This document shows, in pieces, positions 1-36,983 of a stretch of DNA of 36,983 nucleotides (positions are counted from its first letter, which is position 1; every line of letters starts with the position of its first letter). Both the position numbers and the translations under genes were made by a program. The notes under the pieces were generated by a model, which was given only the letters and a program-made list of their open reading frames with translations, made no database searches and was not told the origin of the DNA. Source of the stretch: a virus; IMG/VR virus record IMGVR_UViG_3300023174_000015, positions 1-36,983 of that record; one strand, written 5' to 3'.

Positions 1-36
1 CAGCTGCGCTCAGAACACAACGGAAGGTTTGTATGA
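1..36 (+). CDS. PD-(D/E)XK nuclease, 3' end (redundant copy)
   Basis: The first twelve codons (QLRSEHNGRFV then TGA) are in frame with, and identical to, the end of the nuclease gene at 35810-36892. On the circular genome this is the same gene end, not a second gene. Its TGA overlaps the ATG of the next gene at 33-36 (ATGA). Confidence 0.9.
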   Translation, partial: QLRSEHNGRFV

Positions 37-127
37 TAACGCCACCTATCCAAGACATTACTTTGCGTGATTATTTTGCAGCTTATGCCATGCAAGCAAT
101 CATTAACCGGTCAGACGCAAGATTTAC
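1..127. repeat. Terminal redundancy, left copy (circular contig join)
   Basis: Bases 1-127 are identical to bases 36857-36983, checked base by base. The repeat spans the end of the nuclease gene and the start of the 58-aa gene, so it does not lie at a gene boundary as true phage termini usually do. A length of exactly 127 matches a common maximum assembler k-mer, which favours a circular assembly join. Unit genome length is therefore 36,856 bp. Confidence 0.95.
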
Positions 128-14627: not shown

Positions 14628-15203
14628 TTATTGCCCCTTTTTTGCAGCCCATCGGGCTTTAGCGGCTACAGAAATTTTCTGCTTTGCCTCGTCTGTATGA
14701 TAACGGCCAGTGCTGGTCGTTCTAATTTTTTCACGGGTTTCAGCAGAAAAAACCTTACCCTTGTTTACATTTGATAAATGTGCTTTTTGCGCCTCGGACA
14801 TTACGGAAACGCCCTTTTTAGCTTTTGAAATGTTTTGCTTATGTTTGTCAGAAAACCCACGCTTTTTAGCCGATACACTCATTTTAGCGCGTGTTTCAAT
14901 TGAGGCTTTTGTTCCAAGAGGTGAGTTGGCAATTGGACGCCCGTTGTAAGTTGGCTTAAAAAAATCCATCCAAAATTGCTCACGGGAGATCAAATTAGTC
15001 TTGTCATCAACAAACTGAATAATTTCCCAATCAAACGTATTTGCGCCGTACTTGTTATACGCCCGTTGAAGGCGTGTGTTGTAGTGGCATTGCTTAAACA
15101 ATAAATTACGATGCGCGTTCCATCTGCGATTAACAGCCACAGCAGAGCCAACGTACATGTCGCGGGTGACATTGTTGACAATAGCGTAGATGGCAGAGGC
15201 CAT
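14628..15203 (-). CDS. GIY-YIG homing endonuclease with NUMOD3 repeats
   Basis: A 191-aa free-standing homing endonuclease. The nuclease N-terminus has the AIYAIVN strand, a YVGSA strand (Y-I-G equivalent), Arg-containing NRRWNAHRN, and a Glu further on in SREQFWMDFF. From about residue 105 there are repeated DNA-binding NUMOD3-type units (SDKHKQNISKAKKG, SEAQKAHLSNVNKG, SAETREKIRTTSTG). It is wedged between two structural genes (3-nt gap before, no gap after), typical of an invading selfish element. No intron is evident. It could cut a homologous unfilled site in relatives. Confidence 0.93.
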   Translation of the reverse strand: MASAIYAIVNNVTRDMYVGSAVAVNRRWNAHRNLLFKQCHYNTRLQRAYNKYGANTFDWEIIQFVDDKTNLISREQFWMDFFKPTYNGRPIANSPLGTKASIETRAKMSVSAKKRGFSDKHKQNISKAKKGVSVMSEAQKAHLSNVNKGKVFSAETREKIRTTSTGRYHTDEAKQKISVAAKARWAAKKGQ

Positions 15204-17561: not shown

Positions 17562-18086
17562 TTAAGAAGTCAAAGTTGTTTGGTGAGGACAAACGCCACC
17601 GTTTTTATGTTTCCCTACTTGACAGTTCATACACAATACTTGGTAACCAGACGGAAAGCCTGACTTCCTAAGCCAGCGATAAAAACCGTATCCTGAGCCT
17701 GAATACAAACCCGATTTACGTTCTTTTGCGCCGTTATTATTTATATGATCTATCGAAAGAAACAATGATTCAGTTTCACCGCAGCAGTTACAAGTATAGC
17801 CACCATAAGCAACAAATACAGCATTTCTACATATCGTTTGAGCACGTTTGGTTTTTGCAGATTCATGCGCTCGAATTGCAGCGACTTCTTCTGGTGTTCC
17901 ATTCGCAATCTTACGATTACGCCATTCGCGGGAATGTTCACGGGATTTCTCCCTGTTTGATTCCCGCCAATCACGCATACGCTGATTGAACTTTTCACGA
18001 TTTCGTTCTCTATATCTAACAGATGCTTCTCTGTTGCGTTGCCGCTTCAGTTCTTCAGCCGTCAAATCTAAATTGTCACTCTCCAT
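17562..18086 (-). CDS. HNH homing endonuclease
   Basis: A 174-aa free-standing HNH nuclease. The N-terminal 60 residues are highly basic and arginine-rich with repeats like RxRNREKFNQRMRDWRESNR, probable DNA-binding helices. The HNH core has C99 and C101/C102 in YTCNCCGE, the SIDHINN motif (His114), and LCMNCQVGKHK (C152, C155, His160), a zinc-bound beta-beta-alpha type. It sits between scaffold and coat, interrupting the P22-like gene order, which suggests insertion of a selfish element. AGGAG precedes the ATG. Confidence 0.92.
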   Translation of the reverse strand: MESDNLDLTAEELKRQRNREASVRYRERNREKFNQRMRDWRESNREKSREHSREWRNRKIANGTPEEVAAIRAHESAKTKRAQTICRNAVFVAYGGYTCNCCGETESLFLSIDHINNNGAKERKSGLYSGSGYGFYRWLRKSGFPSGYQVLCMNCQVGKHKNGGVCPHQTTLTS

Positions 18087-22315: not shown

Positions 22316-24510
22316 TGTGGCATTCCCATCTGTTGTTCAGGTGGCATCATTTCCATACCTTCTTGCGGCATCTCAGCACCAACATCCATGTCACGGCCTG
22401 GCATTTCGCCAATCAGATCACCAGAGGTGATCATACCGTGAACCGTGCCCATCACGATGTCCTGAATCTGCTCTGGCGACATAGATGCCTGAACTTGCGC
22501 CAACCGTTTAGTCTCAGCTTCGTATGCCTTAACCTGCGCCTCAAAGTCTTTGCGCTTCATGTCTTGCACTTCAACCGACTGGTTAACGTGCATTAACATC
22601 TGGTGCATCTGTTCCATCTCTTGACCCATCGCTTGCATCTGTTGCTGCGCGGCCTGCAAGGCTGGATTCTCATCGCTGTCGTTCATCAACTTAGGATCAA
22701 TAGTCTTGGCAAACCGTTTGGCCATCTCTTGTGCGCCTGGCCAATCCATGTTTTTCACAAAAAGGTCACCGGCCACAGCCCACAGTTGATGGTTGCCTTG
22801 CAACAGTTGTGCCATTGCTTCAAGAGCCTCTTGACGTTTTGTCGCGTAGCCTGGGCCGGTGGTTGAAACGACATCGTACTTGCCAACGCCAGGGTTGTAG
22901 ATTTTCTCAAGCACAATCCCGTTTTGGTCAACAATCTTGTTGACCGGCTCGGGTTGCTCGGGGTTAATCTTGACCATTTTGGTGTCGCCATCTTCACCAA
23001 TAATTCGAGCAATACGCTGGGTGTCGTAAATCTTCGGAATCAAGTCCACCAGTTGACGAGCCACATGACGCACGCCACGGGCTAAGTTGTCACCATAGTG
23101 GTAAGTACCTACATCGCCTTCACGCTGACGCGCAAGGATGGCTTTGCCTGACCGTTCGTTGGAACCCATGCCAAGAGAAGCGTTATATTGGCCAGTGGTG
23201 GACTTAATGTCCTCAGATGCGCCAGCTTTGGCTTGCAGAAGACCGCTGGAAGCCATTGGAGGCTGGGCACGCTGGGGTAGTGGCATAACACTGCCTTGAC
23301 CGTCTGTAACGTCTGGATTGACCTCCAGATAAGGCCAATTGTTGGTGTTAGCGGTCTTCCACTTGTCTTCGTAGCCCTCAAACTGGCCGCCATAGCCAAT
23401 AAATGGCGCTTTTGGCGCCAAGGCCAGCATCTCAGCTTCTTGGGACACCCAATAGTTGTACATGCGCTGGGCATCTTTGGCGTTTCGGACCAAACCAGAC
23501 ACATACAAGCGGCCATCCACCTCAAATTCATTGCCAACAATGCGAATGACGGGAATATATTTGCCTGCCCACTCGCGTTGCTCAAGGATTTCGTAGCCGT
23601 TGATCTTGCAATACCGCACTTTTGGGCGGTCAGACTCGCGGGACTTGATGGGTTTGCCGTAAAACGCTTTTAATTGCTTGTCTTCAGGTGTGCCCTCAAA
23701 CGCCGTAGCGTTGCCAGGGTACAAATTCAGCGTTGTGCGGTCATAGTCGATGTAATAATAATCAGCAATGCGGATCGTGTCCTCATTGAGCCAATTGCTG
23801 ATCGACTGGTCACCCACACCCAACGACTGAAGCGTGGTGATCGGCGCTGCATCAGGATACATGCGCTCAAATTCTTCTTTGGTCAGGTCTTCGGTGATGA
23901 AACAATACTTGGCATCCGCACCCGTTGGGTCTTGGATTGTAGGGTCCATGTAGACACTGAAACTGTTGCGTACACGGCCAATCTTGATGTCTTGGTCAAA
24001 GCTGTTGTCTTCGCAATACTCAGTCAGCAGGCGAATATAGCCTTCGCCGTAGGACACTTGGTTCTCGCACGCCGTATCGTAGGCCACATCGGCATCACTG
24101 ATGTACTCAATGTGCCGAATCATGCCATTAAAAATGTCGGCCACCTCAATGTCAGCGTTGTCATCCACAGGAATGACTTTAGCGCCTGGGCGGTTTTGCC
24201 GTTGGTCGTTGGTGACCTGCCGCACATGCTGTGGTAGCTTGTTGATGGTTAGGCAAGGACGGGCGTTGATGGTTTGGCCTTGCACCGCGCCACGGGTGGC
24301 CAGTACATCGGCAGGCCACTGCCAATGGTTGTCTGGTGAGCCTGCGTAAAACTTCAGGTCATCGGTTTCGTCTTCACGGGATTCGGACAGTGCAGAGACA
24401 GCCATGTCCAACCTTGCACGCGCAACGGTCAGGATGTCTGCGTCAGACTTCAGTGGTTTGCCGCCAGCAGCAACATTAGCCGCAGCGACTATTCCGGTTG
24501 GATCAGCCAT
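22312..24510 (-). CDS. Portal protein, P22-type
   Basis: A 732-aa portal that forms the dodecameric DNA channel and binds TerL and the gp4-like protein. Conserved parts include DDLKFYAGSPDNHWQWPADV, NKLPQHVRQVTNDQRQNRPG, GMIRHIEYISDADVAYDTAC, QVSYGEGYIRLL and the phage-typical C-terminal helix rich in Gln/Met (ALQAAQQQMQAMGQEMEQMH), which may form the barrel. AGGGG lies 7 nt before ATG 24510. It is in the expected place after TerL. Confidence 0.92.
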   Translation of the reverse strand: MADPTGIVAAANVAAGGKPLKSDADILTVARARLDMAVSALSESREDETDDLKFYAGSPDNHWQWPADVLATRGAVQGQTINARPCLTINKLPQHVRQVTNDQRQNRPGAKVIPVDDNADIEVADIFNGMIRHIEYISDADVAYDTACENQVSYGEGYIRLLTEYCEDNSFDQDIKIGRVRNSFSVYMDPTIQDPTGADAKYCFITEDLTKEEFERMYPDAAPITTLQSLGVGDQSISNWLNEDTIRIADYYYIDYDRTTLNLYPGNATAFEGTPEDKQLKAFYGKPIKSRESDRPKVRYCKINGYEILEQREWAGKYIPVIRIVGNEFEVDGRLYVSGLVRNAKDAQRMYNYWVSQEAEMLALAPKAPFIGYGGQFEGYEDKWKTANTNNWPYLEVNPDVTDGQGSVMPLPQRAQPPMASSGLLQAKAGASEDIKSTTGQYNASLGMGSNERSGKAILARQREGDVGTYHYGDNLARGVRHVARQLVDLIPKIYDTQRIARIIGEDGDTKMVKINPEQPEPVNKIVDQNGIVLEKIYNPGVGKYDVVSTTGPGYATKRQEALEAMAQLLQGNHQLWAVAGDLFVKNMDWPGAQEMAKRFAKTIDPKLMNDSDENPALQAAQQQMQAMGQEMEQMHQMLMHVNQSVEVQDMKRKDFEAQVKAYEAETKRLAQVQASMSPEQIQDIVMGTVHGMITSGDLIGEMPGRDMDVGAEMPQEGMEMMPPEQQMGMPQ

Positions 24511-24745
24511 TAAAGACCCCTAAAACGTGAGGTTCGCGCATCAGCACGTACTCTTTGCCGCCATGCGTAAATTCTTGCCCAACATCGAAATATACACGAT
24601 CACCGACATTAACGTCTTTGCAATCTGGGCCTGCCGATAGTACCACACCAGTGCCAAGTTTCTCGCTAGACAAAAGTATGAGGGTGTCATGCTTCTCAAC
24701 ATCCCTCTCCATGATCAGGCAGTTTTGCAAGGCTTTTGGGGTCAT
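24503..24745 (-). CDS. GroES-like co-chaperonin (Cpn10 fold, 80 aa)
   Basis: The core [20 protein letters not shown] followed by VYFDVGQEF matches the beta-barrel core of GroES-like proteins, with the mobile-loop region reduced ([13 protein letters not shown]). Family members are about 95 aa, so this is short. Phage Cpn10 proteins such as T4 gp31 replace host GroES for capsid folding. It overlaps the portal start by 8 nt. Alternatively it could be a small beta-barrel protein without chaperone activity. Confidence 0.7.
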
Positions 24746-24882
24746 TTTTTCTTTGGAGGTGGAGAAGCACGCTTGACAGAATACGCAATGGCCACGGCTT
24801 GCTTGACCGGCTTGCCAGCTTTGACTTCAGCAGCTACGTTCTTGCGAAACGCCTCGGGTGATTTAGATTTAACGAGGGGCAT
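24742..24882 (-). CDS. Tiny Lys-rich phage protein (46 aa)
   Basis: Recovered from junctions: ATG 24882 overlaps the previous stop by 1 nt and the TGA overlaps the next ATG (24742-24745). It reads [20 protein letters not shown], then [19 protein letters not shown] and PPPKKK. The K-S-K-S-x2-A-F ... E-x3-G-K-P-x-K-Q-A-x-A-I-A-Y-S pattern is shared by small phage proteins (I recall a DUF6496-like domain). The charge suggests DNA or nucleoprotein binding; function is not known. Confidence 0.8.
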
Positions 24883-25037
24883 CACTTTGCTTTCTTAGCC
24901 GTTTTAGCAGAGTCTTTAAAGTCTTTGGCAGTTGGCGCACCCTTATCACTAGGGCTTCGCATCTTCTCTTTAGACCCAGCAGCAATTCGTTGTTGTTTAG
25001 CATGAATATTGGCATAAAGCCCCTGTTTAGTCGCCAT
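24882..25037 (-). CDS. Tiny Lys-rich phage protein (51 aa)
   Basis: Starts [20 protein letters not shown] and includes [20 protein letters not shown]; ends in TAKKAK. I recognise the 'G-L-Y-A-N-I-H-A-K ... R-I-x-x-G-S-x-E-K-M-R' core from phage and prophage small proteins of unknown role. It shares the MATK start and basic nature with its neighbours, so the three may act together. GGAAG lies 9 nt before the start. The stop overlaps the next ATG by 1 nt. Confidence 0.8.
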
Positions 25038-25039
25038 GA

Positions 25040-25300
25040 TTAACACTTCCATCGTTTAAGGGCAGCTTTAGCGCGTTCGCCATCTTTGGCGTTGGCGGCT
25101 ACCGCACCCATTCTTGCACAAAATGAATCCTTGCGGCCTTGGTCCGCTTTGGTCTTTGGATTAGGCGCTGGCGCTTTCAAGTTTGAACCCGTGGCCGCAT
25201 TGTATTTCTCGCGCCCTTTGGCCGTCAAACCCGCGCCTTTAGACACCGGCAACTTCTCACCTCGGCCAACAGATAATGACACGCCCTTTTTCGTAGCCAT
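25040..25300 (-). CDS. Small basic phage protein, DUF6321-like (86 aa)
   Basis: Begins MATKKGVSLSVGRGEKLPVS and has KGAGLTAKGREKYNAATGSN, KAPAPNPKTKADQGRKDSFC and ends ALKRWKC. I recall this as the DUF6321 family, common near phage packaging and replication genes. It lies 1 nt after the TerL stop. The frame could extend upstream to 25399 but that would lie inside TerL, so ATG 25300 is chosen. Confidence 0.82.
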   Translation of the reverse strand: MATKKGVSLSVGRGEKLPVSKGAGLTAKGREKYNAATGSNLKAPAPNPKTKADQGRKDSFCARMGAVAANAKDGERAKAALKRWKC

Positions 25301-25301
25301 G

Positions 25302-26828
25302 TTAAGACCCCATCCAACTGGTTGAAACTGCACCACGGTCTGAAGTCCGTAGTGTACGAGTTTTTTCACTGTACTCTCGGTGCGCCACAGGAAAAGCAAA
25401 GGTCACGCAAATGGCATCCGCTGCATCCGGTGAAGCAAGCCCCCGTGCTCTCATGTCTTTCTTGGACTCCAAGAATATTGTTCCACGTGAATCAGGCTTG
25501 ATCATAGGTGAAACCAGATCCGTTTTCAAGAACCTGTCTTTTGGAATGCTTGCTGACCTTAACCAGTCCTTCATCTTGCCCCACATCTCAGCACGCTTGT
25601 TGCCATACATGATAGGGTTGGCTGACTTGTTGCCAAAGTTTACACCCTTGACCTTGTAGCGCTGCTCTTTCAGGCGGTCAACAATACCGGCGCCAAGACC
25701 ACCTTCATCAATCACCACCATGGCCGGCTTCCATTCTTCCATGGCCTCAATGATGTGGCCAACCACCGTCATCGTGTCATCGCCTCGATGCCGGTCAATT
25801 CGGATAATGTCCCTGCCCTGCCGGATTGCAAGGACTGTTGCATCAGCGCCAAATCGTGCGGGATCCACACCAATAATAATAGGCGCAGTCTGATCCTTGT
25901 ACTTTTCGCGCTTCATGGCCTCGTCCACAATGTCAGCCGGTATGAACTGGTCATCACCTTCAGACGGGAACATGCCATAGACCTCAACGTGAGCTTGTGA
26001 GCTGTCGGGGCCGTATTCGTCAATGATGTTCTGATAAACAGCCTTGTCCGTACCCTCAACCGTTCGGGCGTCCACAACCTTGTTGGTCCAGAAGTCTCGC
26101 TTGGAGTTAAAGCATTCGTAAAAGTACCCCGTATTTCGGCGAGGGTTGCTGAACGCCAACCATAGGCGGTTTGGCGTGTTCTCCGTAAAGAATCCAGCGG
26201 TCACCGCCCAGATCGAGTCGTCAATACCAGATGCCTCATCAAAGATCACCATTACACCATCGTGGTTGTGGACTCCAGCGTAAGAATCTGGATTCTCAGC
26301 CGACCACAGCCGGCCTTCAACCGCCCAATACCGTGTGCCTTTTCGCAGATCTTTTTCCACTAGCTCAGTAAGCCAGTTGGCAGGGGCTACTTTTGTTGCA
26401 CTCACTTCAAACCAGTGGCTGTTAATGCTCATGGCCAACCACTTGGTAATCTCGGCCCATGTCACTGCTCTGAGCTGTGCTTCGCTGTTGGCCGAAATAA
26501 TGGTGGTCGAACCTATGCGTGTGGACAACATCCAGATGGTGAGCCAAGACACAAGGGCTGATTTGCCGATACCGCGGCCAGATGAGACTGCATGGCGCAG
26601 GGTTTCAAAGTCTATTAACCCATTCTGGCGCCTAATGTGCTCGGTAATCTCTCGCAACACTTCCCTCTGCCATTTTCTTGGTCCCTTGAAATTGTGCAAA
26701 GGCGTGTTCTCTTTGCCCCAAGGAAAAGCAAACAACACAAAAGCCTCGGGATTGTCTGCAATTGCCGGTGACCACAGAGTGGCCATCACCTCTTGTTCGT
26801 CTTCGGGCTTGTAGATTGTGGTTTGCAT
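25302..26828 (-). CDS. Terminase large subunit (ATPase-nuclease)
   Basis: A 508-aa packaging motor. The ATPase has Walker A SGRGIGKS (83-90) and Walker B VMVIFDE (192-198). The RNase-H-like nuclease has Asp322 in IIIGVDPARFG, Asp374-Glu375 in VVIDEGGLG, and Asp468/Asp471 in SPDAADAICVTF. It drives DNA through the portal and cuts the concatemer. The ATG overlaps the stop of the 452-aa gene (TAATG), so translation is coupled to that gene and not to TerS. Confidence 0.95.
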   Translation of the reverse strand: MQTTIYKPEDEQEVMATLWSPAIADNPEAFVLFAFPWGKENTPLHNFKGPRKWQREVLREITEHIRRQNGLIDFETLRHAVSSGRGIGKSALVSWLTIWMLSTRIGSTTIISANSEAQLRAVTWAEITKWLAMSINSHWFEVSATKVAPANWLTELVEKDLRKGTRYWAVEGRLWSAENPDSYAGVHNHDGVMVIFDEASGIDDSIWAVTAGFFTENTPNRLWLAFSNPRRNTGYFYECFNSKRDFWTNKVVDARTVEGTDKAVYQNIIDEYGPDSSQAHVEVYGMFPSEGDDQFIPADIVDEAMKREKYKDQTAPIIIGVDPARFGADATVLAIRQGRDIIRIDRHRGDDTMTVVGHIIEAMEEWKPAMVVIDEGGLGAGIVDRLKEQRYKVKGVNFGNKSANPIMYGNKRAEMWGKMKDWLRSASIPKDRFLKTDLVSPMIKPDSRGTIFLESKKDMRARGLASPDAADAICVTFAFPVAHREYSEKTRTLRTSDRGAVSTSWMGS

Positions 26829-28186
26829 TAAGGATTTGGCGGTTGTTGCTGAAGCATCGCATTGACCGGCGGCTGGGCCAACGCATTAGGCAACTCATAA
26901 TTCATGCCCAAAGCAGATCCAGCAGCTGCACCACCACCATAGTACAGCTCGCGCCAATCTGATGGCGCCATTACCGGATTTTCTGCTTGCGTATAACCGG
27001 CCTTCTTGTGCGCGGTTAGGGAATCTTTCATCTCCGTCCATGACTGGCGGGGCAACAACCGGTAATCTGGATGTGCAAATTCATGGGGCTCCAAACGCTG
27101 ACGGTACACATCCCACTTGCGCCACTGCTCTGGAAACAACTCAATCGTTGGATTTGAACCTCTGGATTCATCCACATAATCAACCACTCGCTTATAAAAC
27201 GGATTGAAATCTTGCAACTGCTTGGGCTCATACGCCAACTTTTCCGGCGTGGCCACACCAGGAATATCGTTCAATTCGCCAGTCTTTGTGCGGTACGTCT
27301 TCGACAACGAAGATCCCCCAATCACATCAATCGCAGCCTTCTCAACATCTTTAACCGGTTTACCCAAAATAGCTTCTGTCGTTGCGTCTGTCTTCAACTT
27401 GCCAGCCATCCGGTCACGAAACGCTTGGCCAACAATCGGATCATCCAACATCCGTTCATACGAATTACGGATCATGTGCAAATCAACCGCACTGGTATTG
27501 GCCTTCTCCAAATTCAACCACGGCGTGCCAAGTGATGCCGTCTTTGGCCCCAAGCCTGGCACCTGATTCATCACCCGCATAGTCACATCACGCATAGTCT
27601 CCCCAGGCGCCATCTGAAACATCTCCGGCTTGTCCAAAATCAATTTGGCCAACATTGCCTGATTTCCCAAATCAGCCGTACCCAATACACCCATGCCACC
27701 GCGGCCAGCTGCCTGCACACCAGTCTGACGCTGTGCGGTTTGCGATAAACCAGGCTCATTAACCCTACTGGCCAATGCCTGCAATTCATCATGGTTCACC
27801 AATCTCATGCGCTGCGCCAAAAACTCATTTGGCGTCAACGGCGCATTCGGCGACAACAACGCAAAATTCAACCGGTTAAACATGTCCACCTGATCAGGGT
27901 TCTGCACCTCATGCGTCCTGATCAACTTCTGCATCAACTCATCATGCGTCTTTTTGGGCAACGATGCCGGATCAATGTTGTTTGCCTTCATCCAAAACAT
28001 GTCAGGCACCGTAAACGTACCCTCCAAACCACCAGGTATTTTGACCTCACGCTTACTTGTCAGGTCCGACACACCAAGTGATTTGGGCTCAGTCAACGTC
28101 ATGTTGACACCATGCTTTTCACCCCAAGCCTTCCATTCAGCTTCGCTTGCCTTTGGACCAGGCGTGGTGGCCGGCTCGGCCCTCAT
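26828..28186 (-). CDS. Phage protein with HhH-GPD-like motif (452 aa), function unproven
   Basis: No whole-protein function is assigned. Residues 210-217 read PGLGPKTA and 233-240 read AVDLHMIR. In EndoIII-type DNA glycosylases the helix-hairpin-helix carries P-G-V-G-R-K-T-A and, 18 residues after the Lys, the catalytic Asp in A-V-D-T-H; here the Lys215-Asp235 distance is 20. Residues 48-130 (KIPGGLEGTFTVPDMFWMKA, NFALLSPNAPLTPNEFLA) resemble a module I recall from large phage virion or polyvalent proteins. The C-terminal end is Pro/Gln-rich. It lies between TerS and TerL and is coupled (ATGA) to the 196-aa gene. Confidence 0.7.
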   Translation of the reverse strand: MRAEPATTPGPKASEAEWKAWGEKHGVNMTLTEPKSLGVSDLTSKREVKIPGGLEGTFTVPDMFWMKANNIDPASLPKKTHDELMQKLIRTHEVQNPDQVDMFNRLNFALLSPNAPLTPNEFLAQRMRLVNHDELQALASRVNEPGLSQTAQRQTGVQAAGRGGMGVLGTADLGNQAMLAKLILDKPEMFQMAPGETMRDVTMRVMNQVPGLGPKTASLGTPWLNLEKANTSAVDLHMIRNSYERMLDDPIVGQAFRDRMAGKLKTDATTEAILGKPVKDVEKAAIDVIGGSSLSKTYRTKTGELNDIPGVATPEKLAYEPKQLQDFNPFYKRVVDYVDESRGSNPTIELFPEQWRKWDVYRQRLEPHEFAHPDYRLLPRQSWTEMKDSLTAHKKAGYTQAENPVMAPSDWRELYYGGGAAAGSALGMNYELPNALAQPPVNAMLQQQPPNP

Positions 28187-28773
28187 GCGCCCCTGGTCAT
28201 CATCGCATCATCAATCACCGACTTCGGCACAACACCAGAAATCTTAAATGCCGGACTCTGCATCAGCGATCTTGCAATATCTTCCTCACCGCCAACCGCG
28301 GCTTTTAATTGCGCCATGCTTCGAGCTACGCCAGTCCCATCTTGCTTGGCCCTGAACGCCTCAAGCGCTTGGTTCTTTTCTTGACCCTTTAATTTTCCAA
28401 AAGCCTCAGAGTTAACCAACCTCAATTCTGCTTTACTCAAATCCTGAATGCTTGCGCCCACCGGCAAATTCTTGGTTAACGGCGCCAACAACGGTGCGGC
28501 CTGCGCCATCAATCCCAAGCTATATGCCGGATTGGCCACATTGCGAATGCCTTGGTAATCCGGATGCATCACACTAAACCCCATCTGATCCGGCGGCGTT
28601 CCCAAGAAACCCTGCACCGCAGCATACGTCCGCGGGTCCGGCAGGGTGTTTACATCCCGTGCTTGCGCCAACTGCCTTGCGGCTGCTCCCTGACGCTGAA
28701 TGTTAAGGTTGCCAAAAAACGGCGCTGAAAGCGCATTCTGGCTTTGCTGGGCTAAGGCGTTGTATATGGGCAT
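28183..28773 (-). CDS. Phage protein upstream of the HhH-like protein (196 aa)
   Basis: Alanine/glutamine-rich N-terminus (MPIYNALAQQSQNALSAPFF) with PDPRTYAAVQGFLGTPPDQM, GFSVMHPDY and NLPVGASIQDLSKAELRLVN. I recognise the PDPRTYA ... GT-x-P-D-x-M-G-F-S-V segment as an N-terminal part of large aquatic-phage virion or polyvalent proteins. With the 452-aa gene it may be the split form of one such protein. No clear ribosome site precedes ATG 28773; the upstream region is AT-rich non-coding DNA. Confidence 0.65.
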   Translation of the reverse strand: MPIYNALAQQSQNALSAPFFGNLNIQRQGAAARQLAQARDVNTLPDPRTYAAVQGFLGTPPDQMGFSVMHPDYQGIRNVANPAYSLGLMAQAAPLLAPLTKNLPVGASIQDLSKAELRLVNSEAFGKLKGQEKNQALEAFRAKQDGTGVARSMAQLKAAVGGEEDIARSLMQSPAFKISGVVPKSVIDDAMMTRGA

Positions 28774-28823
28774 GGCGTGATGTTAAACGAAAAATTAAAA
28801 AATGAAAAATATTTTTAAAATGT

Positions 28824-28918
28824 TCGCGGGGCTACCGTAACCGCGGCCCTTTCGCGCCGGCCCTACCCCCCCCGACCGTGGCCAGTTGGGCAGGCCAGGC
28901 GCCGCGGGGCCACCCGAC
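28824..28918. other. GC-rich island with inverted repeats
   Basis: About 80% GC (75 of 94 bases by my count) in an otherwise balanced genome. It has two CCGCGG sites (28841-28846 and 28902-28907), a run of eight C, and GTGGCC (28878-28883) matched to GGCCAC (28908-28913), so the transcript could fold strongly. It directly follows an A/T tract. It may be a structured RNA, a protein-binding site, or DNA of foreign origin. Confidence 0.6.
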
Positions 28919-29066
28919 AACCCAAGTGTTAGTAGGCGCTTACATACTTAGCGGCTAAAATCATAATGAATACCGAATAGCTCAGCGACTTTATACAATG
29001 TCCATTATGTTAAGTCATAACGTGGTTACGCACAGCTTATACATGATCGTATGTCGCCAAACTCAG

Positions 29067-29113
29067 TTGTCCACAACCAACGATGAATAACTGCCAGTTT
29101 GCCCTGTGGATAA
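29067..29113. promoter_or_regulatory. DnaA-box pair
   Basis: TGTGGATAA at 29105-29113 is the exact complement of the DnaA consensus TTATCCACA. TTGTCCACA at 29067-29075 differs by one base. They face each other. Further weak matches lie at TTATACAAT and TTATACATG in the same gap. Host DnaA binding would link phage replication to the host. Confidence 0.55.
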
Positions 29114-29140
29114 CTGGCTTGAATAAGTCATAGGTTTTGC

Positions 29141-29169
29141 CTATCGGTTTTGCCAAACCGGTAGTTTTT
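29141..29169 (+). terminator. Hairpin followed by T-run (plus strand)
   Basis: CTATCGGTTT (29141-29150) pairs with AAACCGGTAG (29155-29164), with one T-G wobble, around loop TGCC, followed by TTTTT. It has the form of an intrinsic terminator on the plus strand, yet no plus-strand gene ends here. It may stop an antisense transcript or act as a DNA-structure signal. Confidence 0.5.
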
Positions 29170-29263
29170 GGCTATTTTTTGGTTGTGCGCCTGCGCGTAT
29201 TTGTAAAGAATTTCGGCGTAATTCGTCCAAACCCACCACTATTACCACACCAAAAGTCACAAA

Positions 29264-29773
29264 TCACCCATCCTTTGCCTGCACATCCACGACATTGCTA
29301 TCGTCTTGAAGCACGCGCTGTTTAGCTTCGTTCAGGGCATCCAAGACGCTGATGCGGGTGTCGGTAACGCTGACGTCAATGCGATCACCGTACATTTTGG
29401 GCTTGAGTTTGGAGGCAATCCATTTGCGCGCATCGACTTGCATTCGCTTTTGCTGAACCCAAGCAGAAGCCATGGGTCCTTCCAAATGATCTGGCATGGG
29501 TTCGTCAGCCAGCTCAAGAATTTCTTCAGCCAAGCGGTCGGCTCGGTTTTCAATGGCTTTTTCGTACATCTCACGAAACTGGGGATTTGTCCGAAGCATC
29601 ATCATCACAGCCTGGTACGAAGGCATTCCTTCGGTTTTAAGTGCACTGCTTAAACTTTTGCCAAGCGACATTTGCTCGGTCATGGTTTGCCAGCATGGAT
29701 TGTCAATGCCAAAAACGGTTGGCCGGCCTCGTCCCTTTTTTACCGCCATTTCAGACGCCAAGTTTTGAGTCAC
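29264..29773 (-). CDS. Terminase small subunit (Sf6 TerS-like)
   Basis: A 169-aa protein that should recognise the packaging site and recruit TerL. The N-terminal basic tail (KKGRGRP) is followed by an HTH-like region (SLSSALKTEGMPSYQAVMMM), an oligomerisation helix (EKAIENRADRLAEEILELAD), and QVDARKWIASKLKPKMYGDR, a typical Sf6/P22-type TerS segment. The start is GTG 29773 with AAGGAG 7 nt upstream. It is separated from TerL by a non-coding gap and two genes, unlike P22 where they are adjacent. Confidence 0.88.
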   Translation of the reverse strand: MTQNLASEMAVKKGRGRPTVFGIDNPCWQTMTEQMSLGKSLSSALKTEGMPSYQAVMMMLRTNPQFREMYEKAIENRADRLAEEILELADEPMPDHLEGPMASAWVQQKRMQVDARKWIASKLKPKMYGDRIDVSVTDTRISVLDALNEAKQRVLQDDSNVVDVQAKDG

Positions 29774-30260: not shown

Positions 30261-30551
30261 CTAACCCCTTAAAAACTCAAAATCCGTGTACCGACGATTC
30301 GACCCGACTTTGTGTACCGAACCGAAGGGGGTATATATACCCCTTCGGTACGTTTCGGTACAACGGGCAAGTCGGGCATCGGTACGTTTCGGTACGTTTC
30401 GGTACATCGGTACATGGTTTCGGTACACTTTGACTGTACCGAACGTACCGAAATCGGTACACATCGGTTCGGTACGGTACATTTCACCCTCAAAATAATT
30501 GCCGTTTCGGTACATCGGTACATCAATTCTAACTGTTTCTGGCATGGTCAT
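30261..30551 (-). CDS. Repeat-encoded ORF (96 aa) over GGTAC iterons
   Basis: The ATG overlaps the primase-helicase stop (ATGA, 30548-30551) and the frame ends 1 nt before the RusA start, so it fits the operon exactly. Much of it is coded by GGTAC/GTACC repeats, giving recurring YRN, VPKRT and CTETYRR segments. The DNA is nearly stop-free in all minus frames because the repeat lacks stops, so openness is weak evidence. No strong ribosome site precedes it (weak GAAG). It may be a translated origin region or only an incidental frame. Confidence 0.5.
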   Translation of the reverse strand: MTMPETVRIDVPMYRNGNYFEGEMYRTEPMCTDFGTFGTVKVYRNHVPMYRNVPKRTDARLARCTETYRRGIYTPFGSVHKVGSNRRYTDFEFLRG

Positions 30552-30596
30552 TGCTTATTTTCTTCATTTTTTGATGTTTTCGGTACAGACCGGTAC
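30288..30596. repeat. GGTAC/GTACC repeat cluster (candidate iteron origin)
   Basis: I count 18 copies in 309 bp: GGTAC starting at 30347, 30357, 30381, 30391, 30401, 30409, 30422, 30456, 30471, 30476, 30509, 30517, 30582 and 30592, and GTACC at 30288, 30314, 30436 and 30445. Under one would be expected by chance. Several copies are 10 bp apart, one helical turn. Most share a TTTCGGTAC core. A bulged palindrome (ACCGAAGGGG around GTATATATAC to CCCTTCGGT, 30321-30349) lies at its left side. Two copies lie in the end of the primase-helicase gene. Confidence 0.9.
30321..30349. repeat. Palindrome with AT core
   Basis: Arms ACCGAAGGGG and CCCTTCGGT flank the self-complementary GTATATATAC, with a single unpaired G in the left arm. 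The AT core could melt easily. It stands beside the GGTAC iterons, the layout expected of an origin or a strong operator. Confidence 0.8.
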
Positions 30597-32599
30597 ACCT
30601 CATTGTGCAGGCTAACCATTTCTTTTTTCATCAGACCATCAACGCATTCCTTGAATCTACGCGAATTCAAACCATGGCTTTTAGCTGATTCCCGCCACTC
30701 ATCGTAATTGGCTGAAACGTCTATGCCTTCCATGCCATCGGTGGTTTTCTTGGCCTCAATGGCCACCAAACAGTTCAGGGCGATCAACTGGTTGCCTGGC
30801 AACACGGTACGCTTTTGCACACTGCTTACCAATCCGCTGATGTCCACACTGGTGAGGTACGCACCCTTAACTGGGTTGCCGTGCTTATCAAGGATTGGCA
30901 AATCAACCTGAGTGATCTGGAAATTCTTAATGGCAGGCATTTCTGCGTCCTTCATCTTTTTGGATTCAAACTGAATGGTCTTGGAGCCCGAATCCAGCTG
31001 GCACTTGTACTCAGCGTCAAGTGCGCCCTTTAATGCTGTCGATCCCCTGCTTCTGTCTTTGTCCATGGCGCCGCTGTGGTGAGCCACCAGCACGCAGCAC
31101 TTGTAGTCTTGGCGCAAGTAGGTATCCAAATGTTGGATAAAGCTGTTCATGTCTTGGGTGCTGTTTTCATCCCCGCCCATGTTCCGAGCCAATGTGTCAA
31201 TGACAATCATGGCTGGTATATGGCCACACTCTGTGGCCAAGGTTTTGATGGCCTCTGCCACCATGGCCGCTTCTGTGGCGTCATACAGTTGAGCTGCCCT
31301 GTGGCTTTTGAACAGTGGTGCGCCGGCCAGGCTGATGCCGTTGCCCAATTCCCACGCCTTGAAACGCCGTGCCAGTCCGTTGTGCCCTTCGCCGGCGATG
31401 TAGAACACTGCACCCTTTTGCACGCCATGCCCATGCCAAGGTGTGCCGGTTGCCACACAGCAGGCAATGTCGATGCTGACAAAGCTCTTACCGCCGCCTG
31501 GGTCACCGAACACCTGCGCCAAGCTGTCTGATTCGATGTAGTCATCGACAATCCACTTGATCTCTGCCAGCTCCAAACTGTCAATGCGCGAGAATTCAAA
31601 CGCCAGTTTTTCCCGTGCCGGTCCAGCTACGCGCTCAATCTGGTCCTTAACCGCATCAAGCCCCTGCAGGCAGTGCAAATCATTAAAGTCTGTTGGCTTG
31701 TTGTCCACCATGTCAGACTCTCCAAAGCTGGGATACACAATCTCGCCAAACACCAACGCAGCTGCCGCACGGCCCTTGGTCACGCCAGGGTTGCCCTCCG
31801 TCCACTGGTCATTGTCTGCGCCAATAATAATCTTAGAGCCTGGGAACATCTCTTTTGCGCTCTTGGCCACCTTGGCCAAGTTGCCACAATCAAACGCCAC
31901 CATGACGGTGTAGCCCGTTGCCTCATGGATGCTGGCGCAAGTGGCAAAGCCCTCACCCACAAACACAATCTTGCGGTTACCGCGCAACTCATAAAAGCCG
32001 CCATCAATCTTGCCACCCTTTAGGAAGCGTTTGTTCCCTTCAGCGTCAATGGTTTGGTAACTCAAGATCTCGCCGGTCTGGTTGATCACCGGCACTACCA
32101 AACGGCCAGCACGATCAATCTTGATGCCGTGTGCGCCAATGTGCTTGCGAACAAGGTAAGGATGATCATCGCTGGCATCTGCATAGGTGCCCACCTCATC
32201 TTCTGCACGCTCAGCAGCCATTGCCTGACTGGCCAACCGTTCTGCATCCTTCTTGGCCTTGAGCTCGGTCACCCACTTATCATGCTCAAATCGCTCGGTG
32301 AAACTCATGGACCGCCCAATGTCAGCCACCCACTTGGCTTCAAACGTAGGCTCCTTCCAGCAGCCGGCAATCCCCACAGGGATCTTGCCACTGGTGTGCA
32401 AGATATACCAGCCATCCAGCGCCCCCTTCTTGCTTGATACATGCGGCACACGGTGGATCTCACCATCAGCAATCAGTTCTTTGATCAGCAGCCCATTGGC
32501 CTCGCAGTGAGATCTGAACGCTGCTTCAGGGTTGATCAGGTCTTGCGACTCTGTGGCCACAGCAAAGCCGTTGGGGAATATGGTTGAAAGGGATGTCAT
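30548..32599 (-). CDS. TOPRIM primase / RepA-like replicative helicase
   Basis: A 683-aa two-part replication protein. The N-terminal half has a TOPRIM domain with Glu216 in IVFVGEGFAT and Asp262/Asp264 in IIIGADND. The C-terminal half is a RepA/RecA-like helicase with Walker A GDPGGGKS (365-372), Walker B MIVID (464-468), and VLVAHHSG (503-510). It should prime and unwind phage DNA while host polymerase extends. I start at ATG 32599 because it overlaps the regulator's stop (ATGA) and GGAGG is 7 nt upstream; a frame from 32650 runs into that gene. The end of the gene carries two GGTAC copies. Confidence 0.9.
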   Translation of the reverse strand: MTSLSTIFPNGFAVATESQDLINPEAAFRSHCEANGLLIKELIADGEIHRVPHVSSKKGALDGWYILHTSGKIPVGIAGCWKEPTFEAKWVADIGRSMSFTERFEHDKWVTELKAKKDAERLASQAMAAERAEDEVGTYADASDDHPYLVRKHIGAHGIKIDRAGRLVVPVINQTGEILSYQTIDAEGNKRFLKGGKIDGGFYELRGNRKIVFVGEGFATCASIHEATGYTVMVAFDCGNLAKVAKSAKEMFPGSKIIIGADNDQWTEGNPGVTKGRAAAALVFGEIVYPSFGESDMVDNKPTDFNDLHCLQGLDAVKDQIERVAGPAREKLAFEFSRIDSLELAEIKWIVDDYIESDSLAQVFGDPGGGKSFVSIDIACCVATGTPWHGHGVQKGAVFYIAGEGHNGLARRFKAWELGNGISLAGAPLFKSHRAAQLYDATEAAMVAEAIKTLATECGHIPAMIVIDTLARNMGGDENSTQDMNSFIQHLDTYLRQDYKCCVLVAHHSGAMDKDRSRGSTALKGALDAEYKCQLDSGSKTIQFESKKMKDAEMPAIKNFQITQVDLPILDKHGNPVKGAYLTSVDISGLVSSVQKRTVLPGNQLIALNCLVAIEAKKTTDGMEGIDVSANYDEWRESAKSHGLNSRRFKECVDGLMKKEMVSLHNEVYRSVPKTSKNEENKQ

Positions 32600-32814
32600 G
32601 CCTGTGCCTCCACCAGCTCTGGCCATATAGCGCCCCAGCTGTCCTGGCACAGCATCTTGCGACTTAACCGCCCACCGGTTTCTTGCTCGATGCGTACAGC
32701 CTCAGTGGCCGACATCTCCCGCCTGCCGGTGAGGCACTGGTAGAGATACTGTTCATTAATGCCGACTTTTTCTGCCAGTAGTCGGCGCTCGTCTGGTGTG
32801 ATTTGTGTATTCAT
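32596..32814 (-). CDS. Cro/YdaS-like DNA-binding regulator (72 aa)
   Basis: A 72-aa helix-turn-helix protein: LLAEKVGINEQYLYQCLTGR places the HTH, followed by REMSATEAVRIEQETGGRLS and DSWGAIWPEL. The ending is typical of YdaS/Cro-like regulators. It is the first leftward gene, divergent from the rightward operon. Three copies of a palindrome lie upstream (32827, 32880, 32902) and O1 is only 12 bp from the start, suggesting self-regulation. No strong ribosome site is visible, so it may use a very short leader. Confidence 0.85.
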   Translation of the reverse strand: MNTQITPDERRLLAEKVGINEQYLYQCLTGRREMSATEAVRIEQETGGRLSRKMLCQDSWGAIWPELVEAQA

Positions 32815-35809: not shown

Positions 35810-36892
35810 ATGGCCGCAGTACCACAATCTGTTGTGGACCCTGTGGCTGACGCCATCTTTGCTCATTACAAGGCAAAGTTTGGCGCCGACCCACAGCGCC
35901 CCTATCTTGGCGCCAGTGCCATTGGCAAGCCTTGCTTGCGTCAGCACTGGTATTCATTCAGATGGTCCAAGCCGGCTGAGTTTTCTGGTCGTTTGTACCG
36001 TGTGTTTCAGTCTGGCCACTTGCAAGAGCCAAGGGTTTACGATGATCTGAGAGCAATTGGCTGTACGTTGTACGACACCGATCCAGTGACTGGCCGGCAA
36101 TGGACGTTTACCGAACCCACCAGTGGTGGCCATTTTCAAGGCAACGCTGACGGTATCGTGACCGGTTTGCCACAGGCGCCGAAGTCACCGCACATATTGG
36201 AGATAAAGACAGCATCAGGCAAGATGTTTGCAGAGATGCAAAAATCCGGTGTAAAGAAAGCCAAGCCCGAACACTACGCGCAGATGTTAATGTACATGAA
36301 GTGGAGCATTGATCAGTATAAAGAGAACGGATGCCACAAGGCCATCTACATTGTGGTCAACAAAGACAACGATGACATTTACACTGAGCGCTTGGAGTTT
36401 GACAAGATTGAAGCGCAGGCCGTAATCGACAAAGCCTTGGCGGTGATCGCCGCCACCGAGCCGCCAGTCGGGATTAGCCAAGATCCAAGCTGGTACGAAT
36501 GCAAGTTCTGCGACTACCACAGCATCTGCCATGGCACGGATGTGCCGGCCCCAACTTGCCGGTCATGTGCCCATGTCACGCCAGAGATGGACGGCAAGGC
36601 ACGCTGGACTTGTTCGTACCATGACAAAGATTTGCCGGTAATGAACCAACGCAAGGGTTGCGATTCACACCGGTACATTCCCATTTTGTTGGCCAAGTTT
36701 TCCCAACCGGTGGACATGGCCGGCGATGCGGTGGTGTACCAGATGGAAGACAAACAGTTTGTCAACGGCACACCCTCGGTTAACCAGGCTTGGATCAGCA
36801 GCCAAGAAATCCACGCCTGCAAGGACAAGAGTGCATTGATTGATGATCTTGCGCTCCAGCTGCGCTCAGAACACAACGGAAGGTTTGTATGA
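35810..36892 (+). CDS. PD-(D/E)XK nuclease, Cas4/AddB-like with Fe-S-type cysteines
   Basis: A 360-aa exonuclease-type protein. The active site has His70, Asp114 (GNADGIV), Glu131 and Lys133 (ILEIKT), and Gln158 (HYAQMLMYM). Cys42 together with Cys231, Cys234 and Cys240 matches the 4-cysteine iron-sulphur staple of Cas4 and AddB nucleases. A second cluster (Cys250, Cys253, Cys268, His271) suggests a zinc site, unusual for this family. It should process DNA ends for the Sak4-like recombinase. The last codons lie in the terminal redundancy. Confidence 0.9.
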   Translation: MAAVPQSVVDPVADAIFAHYKAKFGADPQRPYLGASAIGKPCLRQHWYSFRWSKPAEFSGRLYRVFQSGHLQEPRVYDDLRAIGCTLYDTDPVTGRQWTFTEPTSGGHFQGNADGIVTGLPQAPKSPHILEIKTASGKMFAEMQKSGVKKAKPEHYAQMLMYMKWSIDQYKENGCHKAIYIVVNKDNDDIYTERLEFDKIEAQAVIDKALAVIAATEPPVGISQDPSWYECKFCDYHSICHGTDVPAPTCRSCAHVTPEMDGKARWTCSYHDKDLPVMNQRKGCDSHRYIPILLAKFSQPVDMAGDAVVYQMEDKQFVNGTPSVNQAWISSQEIHACKDKSALIDDLALQLRSEHNGRFV

Positions 36893-36983
36893 TAACGCCA
36901 CCTATCCAAGACATTACTTTGCGTGATTATTTTGCAGCTTATGCCATGCAAGCAATCATTAACCGGTCAGACGCAAGATTTAC
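36857..36983. repeat. Terminal redundancy, right copy
   Basis: Identical to 1-127; see the left copy. Its exact match is the evidence for a closed circle. Confidence 0.95.
36889..36983 (+). CDS. 58-aa protein, 5' part (redundant copy, cut by window end)
   Basis: Same sequence as 33-127. On the circle it joins to the rest of the 58-aa gene. It begins with the ATGA overlap of the nuclease stop. Confidence 0.9.
   Translation, partial: MITPPIQDITLRDYFAAYAMQAIINRSDARF

Follow-up and report, generated by a model that had tools for sequence, protein, structure and literature searches.

Known origins of replication such as oriC and those of P1 (oriR) and pSC101 contain DnaA boxes near an AT tract that is prone to unwinding. 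A XerCD site is defined by two 11-bp arms and a centre of 6–8 bp, with the inner arm bases being the most conserved; according to the published rules for xrs sites, the XerD arm is conserved, the XerC arm varies more, and the centre is not conserved (PMC11724359). At cer and psi, an ArgR/ArcA–PepA accessory sequence is located on the XerC side (PMC11724359). Filamentous and some tailless phages use host XerCD to integrate at the host dif (PMC5357621, PMC10589892). The locus described here is a gap at positions 28774–29263 of a 36,983-nucleotide virus DNA (the whole stretch analysed, hereafter the window). The favoured and fairly likely reading is that it combines an origin dependent on host DnaA with a Xer resolution site of the plasmid type. 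The gap is a control site whose conservation extends across a family of freshwater phages that are uncultured, and through it two host systems are probably borrowed to begin DNA copying and to clear up after it.

An exact direct repeat of 127 nt is present at the two ends of the window (1–127 and 36857–36983), as is typical of an assembler on a closed circle, so that the window probably gives a complete map of a circle of 36,856 bp. End overlaps of 121–127 nt are also found in the relatives G003, G014, and G007. The gap lies between an Sf6-like TerS gene (29264–29773, minus strand; PF20901, 3e-29; phrog_1482, 7e-32) and a gene at 28183–28773 (minus strand). The original prediction regarded the gap as the only long gene-free stretch, with no recognised gene, and both descriptions are fair: its largest open reading frame has at most 62 amino acids, neither an Rfam nor a tRNA match was found in it, and the other apparent gap (24746–25301) is filled by small open reading frames. 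The genes at 28183–28773 and 26828–28186 separate the gap from TerL in the window. TerL directly follows the gap in many relatives, and different genes occupy that place in others; the region 26828–28773 looks like an insertion hotspot. On the other side of TerS, a TOPRIM and RecA-like primase–helicase is encoded at 30548–32650 (minus strand; PF13481, PF13362, phrog_2249), which is likely the replisome partner of the phage. A Cro/CI-like regulator gene adjoins the primase gene. Putative GIY-YIG and HNH homing endonuclease genes, judged from sequence, occur among the head genes (14628–15203 and 17562–18086, minus strand). A small, weakly GroES-like protein (a co-chaperone; 24503–24745, minus strand) is encoded next to the portal gene, and the gene neighbouring the portal in phage DSL-LC05 is annotated as GroES.

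The most informative part of the gap is a dif-like Xer site of 28 bp at 28988–29015 (plus strand), which the original prediction overlooked and which puts the locus in a different light. It is composed of a XerC arm at 28988–28998 (ACTTTATACAA), a centre at 28999–29004 (TGTCCA), and a XerD arm at 29005–29015 (TTATGTTAAGT). The 28-mer is present as a single copy in the window at up to three mismatches and was absent from 100 shuffles. It is identical at 25 of 28 positions to the chromosomal dif of three genomes (ACTTTATACGATGTATATTATGTTAAGT), whose XerD arm is the same, and a comparison by eye gave 24 of 28 identities with the published dif of Rhodoferax ferrireducens (PMC2731167). For the family to which MAG G001 belongs, 121 genomes were searched and a matching dif was found in 40, including the three just mentioned. 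The dif pattern read backward gave 0 hits in these 121 genomes, and a chance match to dif was rejected. The arrangement of 11-6-11, with a near-invariant XerD arm, a variable XerC arm, and a variable centre, agrees with the definition of a XerCD site, and the 28-mer is a putative site of this type at which XerC and XerD would carry out recombination. The Rhodoferax match suggests that the host belongs to Comamonadaceae; this assignment is drawn from the site itself and rests on how its arms match the dif found in the G001 family (25/28).

Among the relatives selected by TerS, the centre is TGTCCA, CGTCCA, TGACCA, or one of several others, and the TGTATA of dif was never seen. A 22-bp phage-type Xer site was found in only one stretch in 257 Gb of species genomes, and this rarity indicates that the 28-mer is a variant of dif and not a copy. 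That stretch belongs to a MAG contig (L202, 7465–7492), right after the gene of a 994-aa TOPRIM-like primase, and DnaA boxes are absent nearby. In many relatives (L009, L012, L075, and others), a palindrome (AGGGTTAACCCT or GGGTTTACCC) is located approximately 20–30 nt before the XerC arm; it is absent from the window.

The Xer-like site is followed, after 10 bp, by two direct DnaA boxes 41 bp apart and then by inverted boxes. Box 1 (29026–29034, plus strand) is degenerate in the window (TTACGCACA), and in relatives it is usually TTATCCACA or TTATGCACA. The original prediction had reported one perfect and one near-perfect box, which were confirmed as box 3 (29105–29113, minus strand, TTATCCACA) and box 2 (29067–29075, plus strand, TTGTCCACA), respectively. 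Across the window, 26 DnaA sites with at most one mismatch were observed against 37 expected. Single boxes are therefore below chance, and the case depends on their clustering and on their conservation in relatives. The composite Xer–DnaA motif has 7e-8 expected occurrences in the window. Host genomes with a matching dif contain TTATCCACA boxes in their dnaA region, so the phage boxes should be recognisable to the DnaA of the host.

The original prediction had named a lack of conservation of the boxes in relatives, along with a lack of any depth or transcript signal, as what would refute it. Relatives were collected from viral contigs by a TerS search alone, independently of the Xer and DnaA pattern, which gave 80 loci; conservation was counted on the 79 loci (window included) that extend 330 nt or more beyond TerS, of which 53 are non-redundant. 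The boxes proved to be conserved: in nearly all of the loci collected, they stand downstream of the TerS stop at set distances. The Xer-like 28-mer is present in 79/79. Among the 53 non-redundant relatives, 49 have TTATGTTAAGT as the XerD arm, 47 have a direct box starting at +10, and 49 have one starting at +51; every one of the 53 also has one or more inverted boxes at 60–110 nt. The background is 0.00045 per position, corresponding to approximately 0.02 boxes expected at any one position. A scan with the Xer pattern recovered at least 120 stretches, in which conservation at the pattern's own positions is circular; these stretches were excluded from the counts, and because of this bias conservation was recomputed on the TerS-selected loci only. 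A blastn search of the gap against phage records gave no match, and the module is absent from six cultured or named phages with a related primase, portal, or host (PB15, 1N2-2, CGphi29, P26218, DSL-LC05, and XX1924). The composite architecture, its conservation, the match to the dif of a bacterial family, and the independence from the terminase described below are all direct readings of the sequence.

The AT-rich tract and the GC island of about 80% in the original prediction were also confirmed. The AT tract (28780–28823, 11.4% GC) is a candidate DNA-unwinding element that includes the 40 bp of lowest stability in the window (28780–28819), and relatives carry ATTTTTATTTTTATTTTT-type tracts at the same place. 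The 60 bp of highest stability (28853–28912) fall in the GC island (28824–28915, 79.3% GC), and approximately 30 bp separate the two extremes. The unwinding-prone tract shares the gap with the DnaA boxes, but the GC island stands between them. A conserved GC core (TAGGGCCGGCGCGAAAGGGCC; 28845–28865, minus strand) is found within the island, on the same strand and always between TerS and TerL in relatives. It is a candidate for a packaging site or for a part of the unwinding region. When the GC core alone was used for a scan, 82 stretches were obtained and 80 loci were read. All 80 have DnaA boxes and a Xer-like site just upstream (the site being recognised in 74 by the strict pattern and in six by inspection, with TATTATGTTAAG), with TerS upstream and TerL downstream wherever these are on the locus. 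On the minus strand of the GC island (28845–28875), GGGTAGGG matches GGGNAGGG, the FtsK loading motif KOPS. Of 67 gaps, 58 have KOPS on the strand of TerS, but most members of one inverted group lack it and show a C-run in place of the G-run; it was dropped as a defining part of the locus because of this absence. A hairpin in the GC island was rejected as a terminator, since by eye its stem is not kept in L009.

In the favoured reading, host DnaA would bind the box array and melt the nearby AT tract. A bidirectional origin would then form, at which the phage primase–helicase and the host replisome would assemble. Host XerC and XerD would act at the 28-mer and resolve circular dimers arising from recombination, as at psi and cer. 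The binding of DnaA, the firing of the origin, recombination by XerCD, and a role in resolution instead of integration are all predictions. The replication origin suggested in the original prediction is supported by the position and spacing of the box array, which are conserved in nearly all relatives, and by its closeness to the least stable stretch of the window. The array also travels with replication genes: the relative G009 shares genes for the primase–helicase, a RusA-like protein, Sak4, Cas4, and a helicase with the window at 68–86% identity and has a different TerS, TerL, portal, and capsid, yet the Xer–DnaA module is still present. In this relative, the primase–helicase and the module are kept together despite unrelated structural genes. 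Against an origin with a resolution site, box 1 of the window itself is degenerate, and in some lineages the module is turned round relative to the AT tract, an odd arrangement if DnaA must load on this tract in one polarity. Headful-type phages need concatemers, and it is not evident what a purely lytic cycle would gain from a resolution site. Across the window, GC skew follows the direction of genes and of transcription; the gap is not marked by it as an origin, and the skew speaks neither for nor against one.

The adjoining TerS raises the question of whether the gap is a packaging (pac or cos) site recognised by this protein, as the original prediction had also proposed. The module occurs in G009 and also in G005–G007, whose TerL is only 30–33% identical, and its presence beside unrelated terminases indicates that it follows replication and host systems and not the terminase. 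For the Xer–DnaA module, the packaging proposal is therefore not supported. It fares better for the GC core, which was found nowhere except between this type of TerS and its TerL and, being specific to this group, could be a packaging site. The window and several relatives have terminal overlaps of 55–127 nt and their contig starts vary relative to the module, which speaks for no fixed end at the gap, and packaging as the function of the locus is quite improbable. A structured RNA, another proposal of the original prediction, or a small transcript from the gap would be in keeping with a terminator-like hairpin with a T tract on the plus strand (29141–29171, the hairpin itself at 29141–29164). 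This hairpin is lineage-specific and is not kept in the near relatives compared, and the Rfam scan of the gap was without a match. The module is inverted relative to TerS in the window and in 18 other TerS-match loci and has the opposite orientation in 121 loci, counts in which the same contig can appear twice. Its presence in both orientations relative to transcription makes a structured RNA unlikely, and an RNA from the gap is extremely improbable overall. On the TerS tree, the orientation label needs eight changes, of which at least five are forced by well-supported branches. Inverted copies have flanking sequence in common, and one inversion spread by recombination is therefore as likely as repeated flipping.

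The boxes might also be a control element and not an origin, serving for DnaA titration, for DnaA-controlled transcription, or as an accessory that steers Xer recombination. The distances of 10 bp between the XerD arm and box 1 and of 41 bp (approximately four helical turns) between the direct boxes are nearly invariant, which suggests one joint nucleoprotein complex, and single boxes are not in excess within the window. A pure control function is nevertheless unlikely, given the unwinding-prone tract nearby, the co-transfer with replication genes, and the lack of any other long gene-free candidate stretch in the genome. A more specific proposal can be put forward tentatively, in which DnaA is an accessory factor of the Xer site and a rigid Xer–10 bp–DnaA–41 bp–DnaA complex couples the initiation of replication to dimer resolution on the circular phage DNA. 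If true, approximately 130 bp would join two functions that lie at opposite ends of the host chromosome. The 28-mer could instead be the attP of a temperate phage that hijacks host XerCD for integration into the host dif, with the boxes acting as an origin after entry or excision. This is rather unlikely, even though the 28-mer mimics the dif of the family searched, a Cro/CI-like regulator gene stands beside the primase, and the same route is known in filamentous and some tailless phages (PMC5357621, PMC10589892). The phage also appears to lack an integrase, as PF00589 was absent from 10 near-full-length phage genomes and present in 14/14 controls. ParA was not found in the same 10 genomes, and no plasmid form of the phage was seen. 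No TerS prophage was confirmed in species genomes with the peptides used, the 401 family genomes sampled hold only distant TerS relatives (at most 41% identical), and none of these 401 contains a hybrid dif/phage attachment site, negatives that are limited by sampling (one genome per species, exact TerS peptides, and a 401-genome sample). The single occurrence of the 22-bp phage-type site in species genomes also argues against integration. Resolution is preferred over integration because the centre is never that of dif and because neither an integrase, a hybrid site, nor a close prophage was found.

As an origin with a resolution site, the module would provide isolate-less phages with a testable origin and, from the dif match, a testable host prediction. 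It is widespread in freshwater phage contigs (at least 120 stretches) and crosses packaging types. It also offers a natural system for studying a possible coupling of initiation with dimer resolution.

Each component of the locus is of a known kind. Rhodoferax phage P26218 (KP792623) resembles the window in having a long gap between the end of RepA and TerS, but its gap contains neither DnaA boxes nor a Xer-like site. Repeated TGTAGCAG units are found there instead; these TGTAGCAG/CTGCTACA repeats (L319, 33146–33653) are initiator-iteron-like and occur where the window has DnaA boxes. The boxes near an AT tract are shared with oriC and with DnaA-dependent origins such as P1 oriR and pSC101. 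Unlike the P1 oriR and pSC101 type, no initiator iterons were found here, and a dif-like site at a distance of 10 bp is part of the arrangement. As with psi (pSC101) and cer (ColE1), the replicon that carries the Xer site is extrachromosomal and has no recombinase of its own, and the centre of the site is unmatched to dif; the centre of psi is six bp, the same length as that of the phage 28-mer. The phage site differs in its neighbour: an array of DnaA boxes adjoins its XerD side, whereas psi and cer have the ArgR/ArcA–PepA accessory sequence on the XerC side. The dif of Comamonadaceae (Rhodoferax ferrireducens, PMC2731167) has the same 28-bp, 11-6-11 layout, an identical XerD arm, and a near-identical XerC arm, but its centre is TGTATA instead of TGTCCA, and it is located at the replication terminus and not beside DnaA boxes. 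The IMEX attP sites of CTXphi, VGJphi, and TLCphi and those of Jorvik-type phages also combine a dif-like site with the lack of an integrase (PMC5357621, PMC10589892). Those phages are filamentous or membrane-containing and are found integrated, whereas the phage described here is tailed, no prophage was found, and of the two IMEX features, it shows the lack of its own integrase, whereas integration at host dif with hybrid sites was not found in the 401 family genomes. A Xer–DnaA fusion in a tailed phage was not found described in the open-access literature. The borrowing of DnaA or of XerCD by phages and plasmids is already known, and the new point is one rigid unit that contains sites for both.
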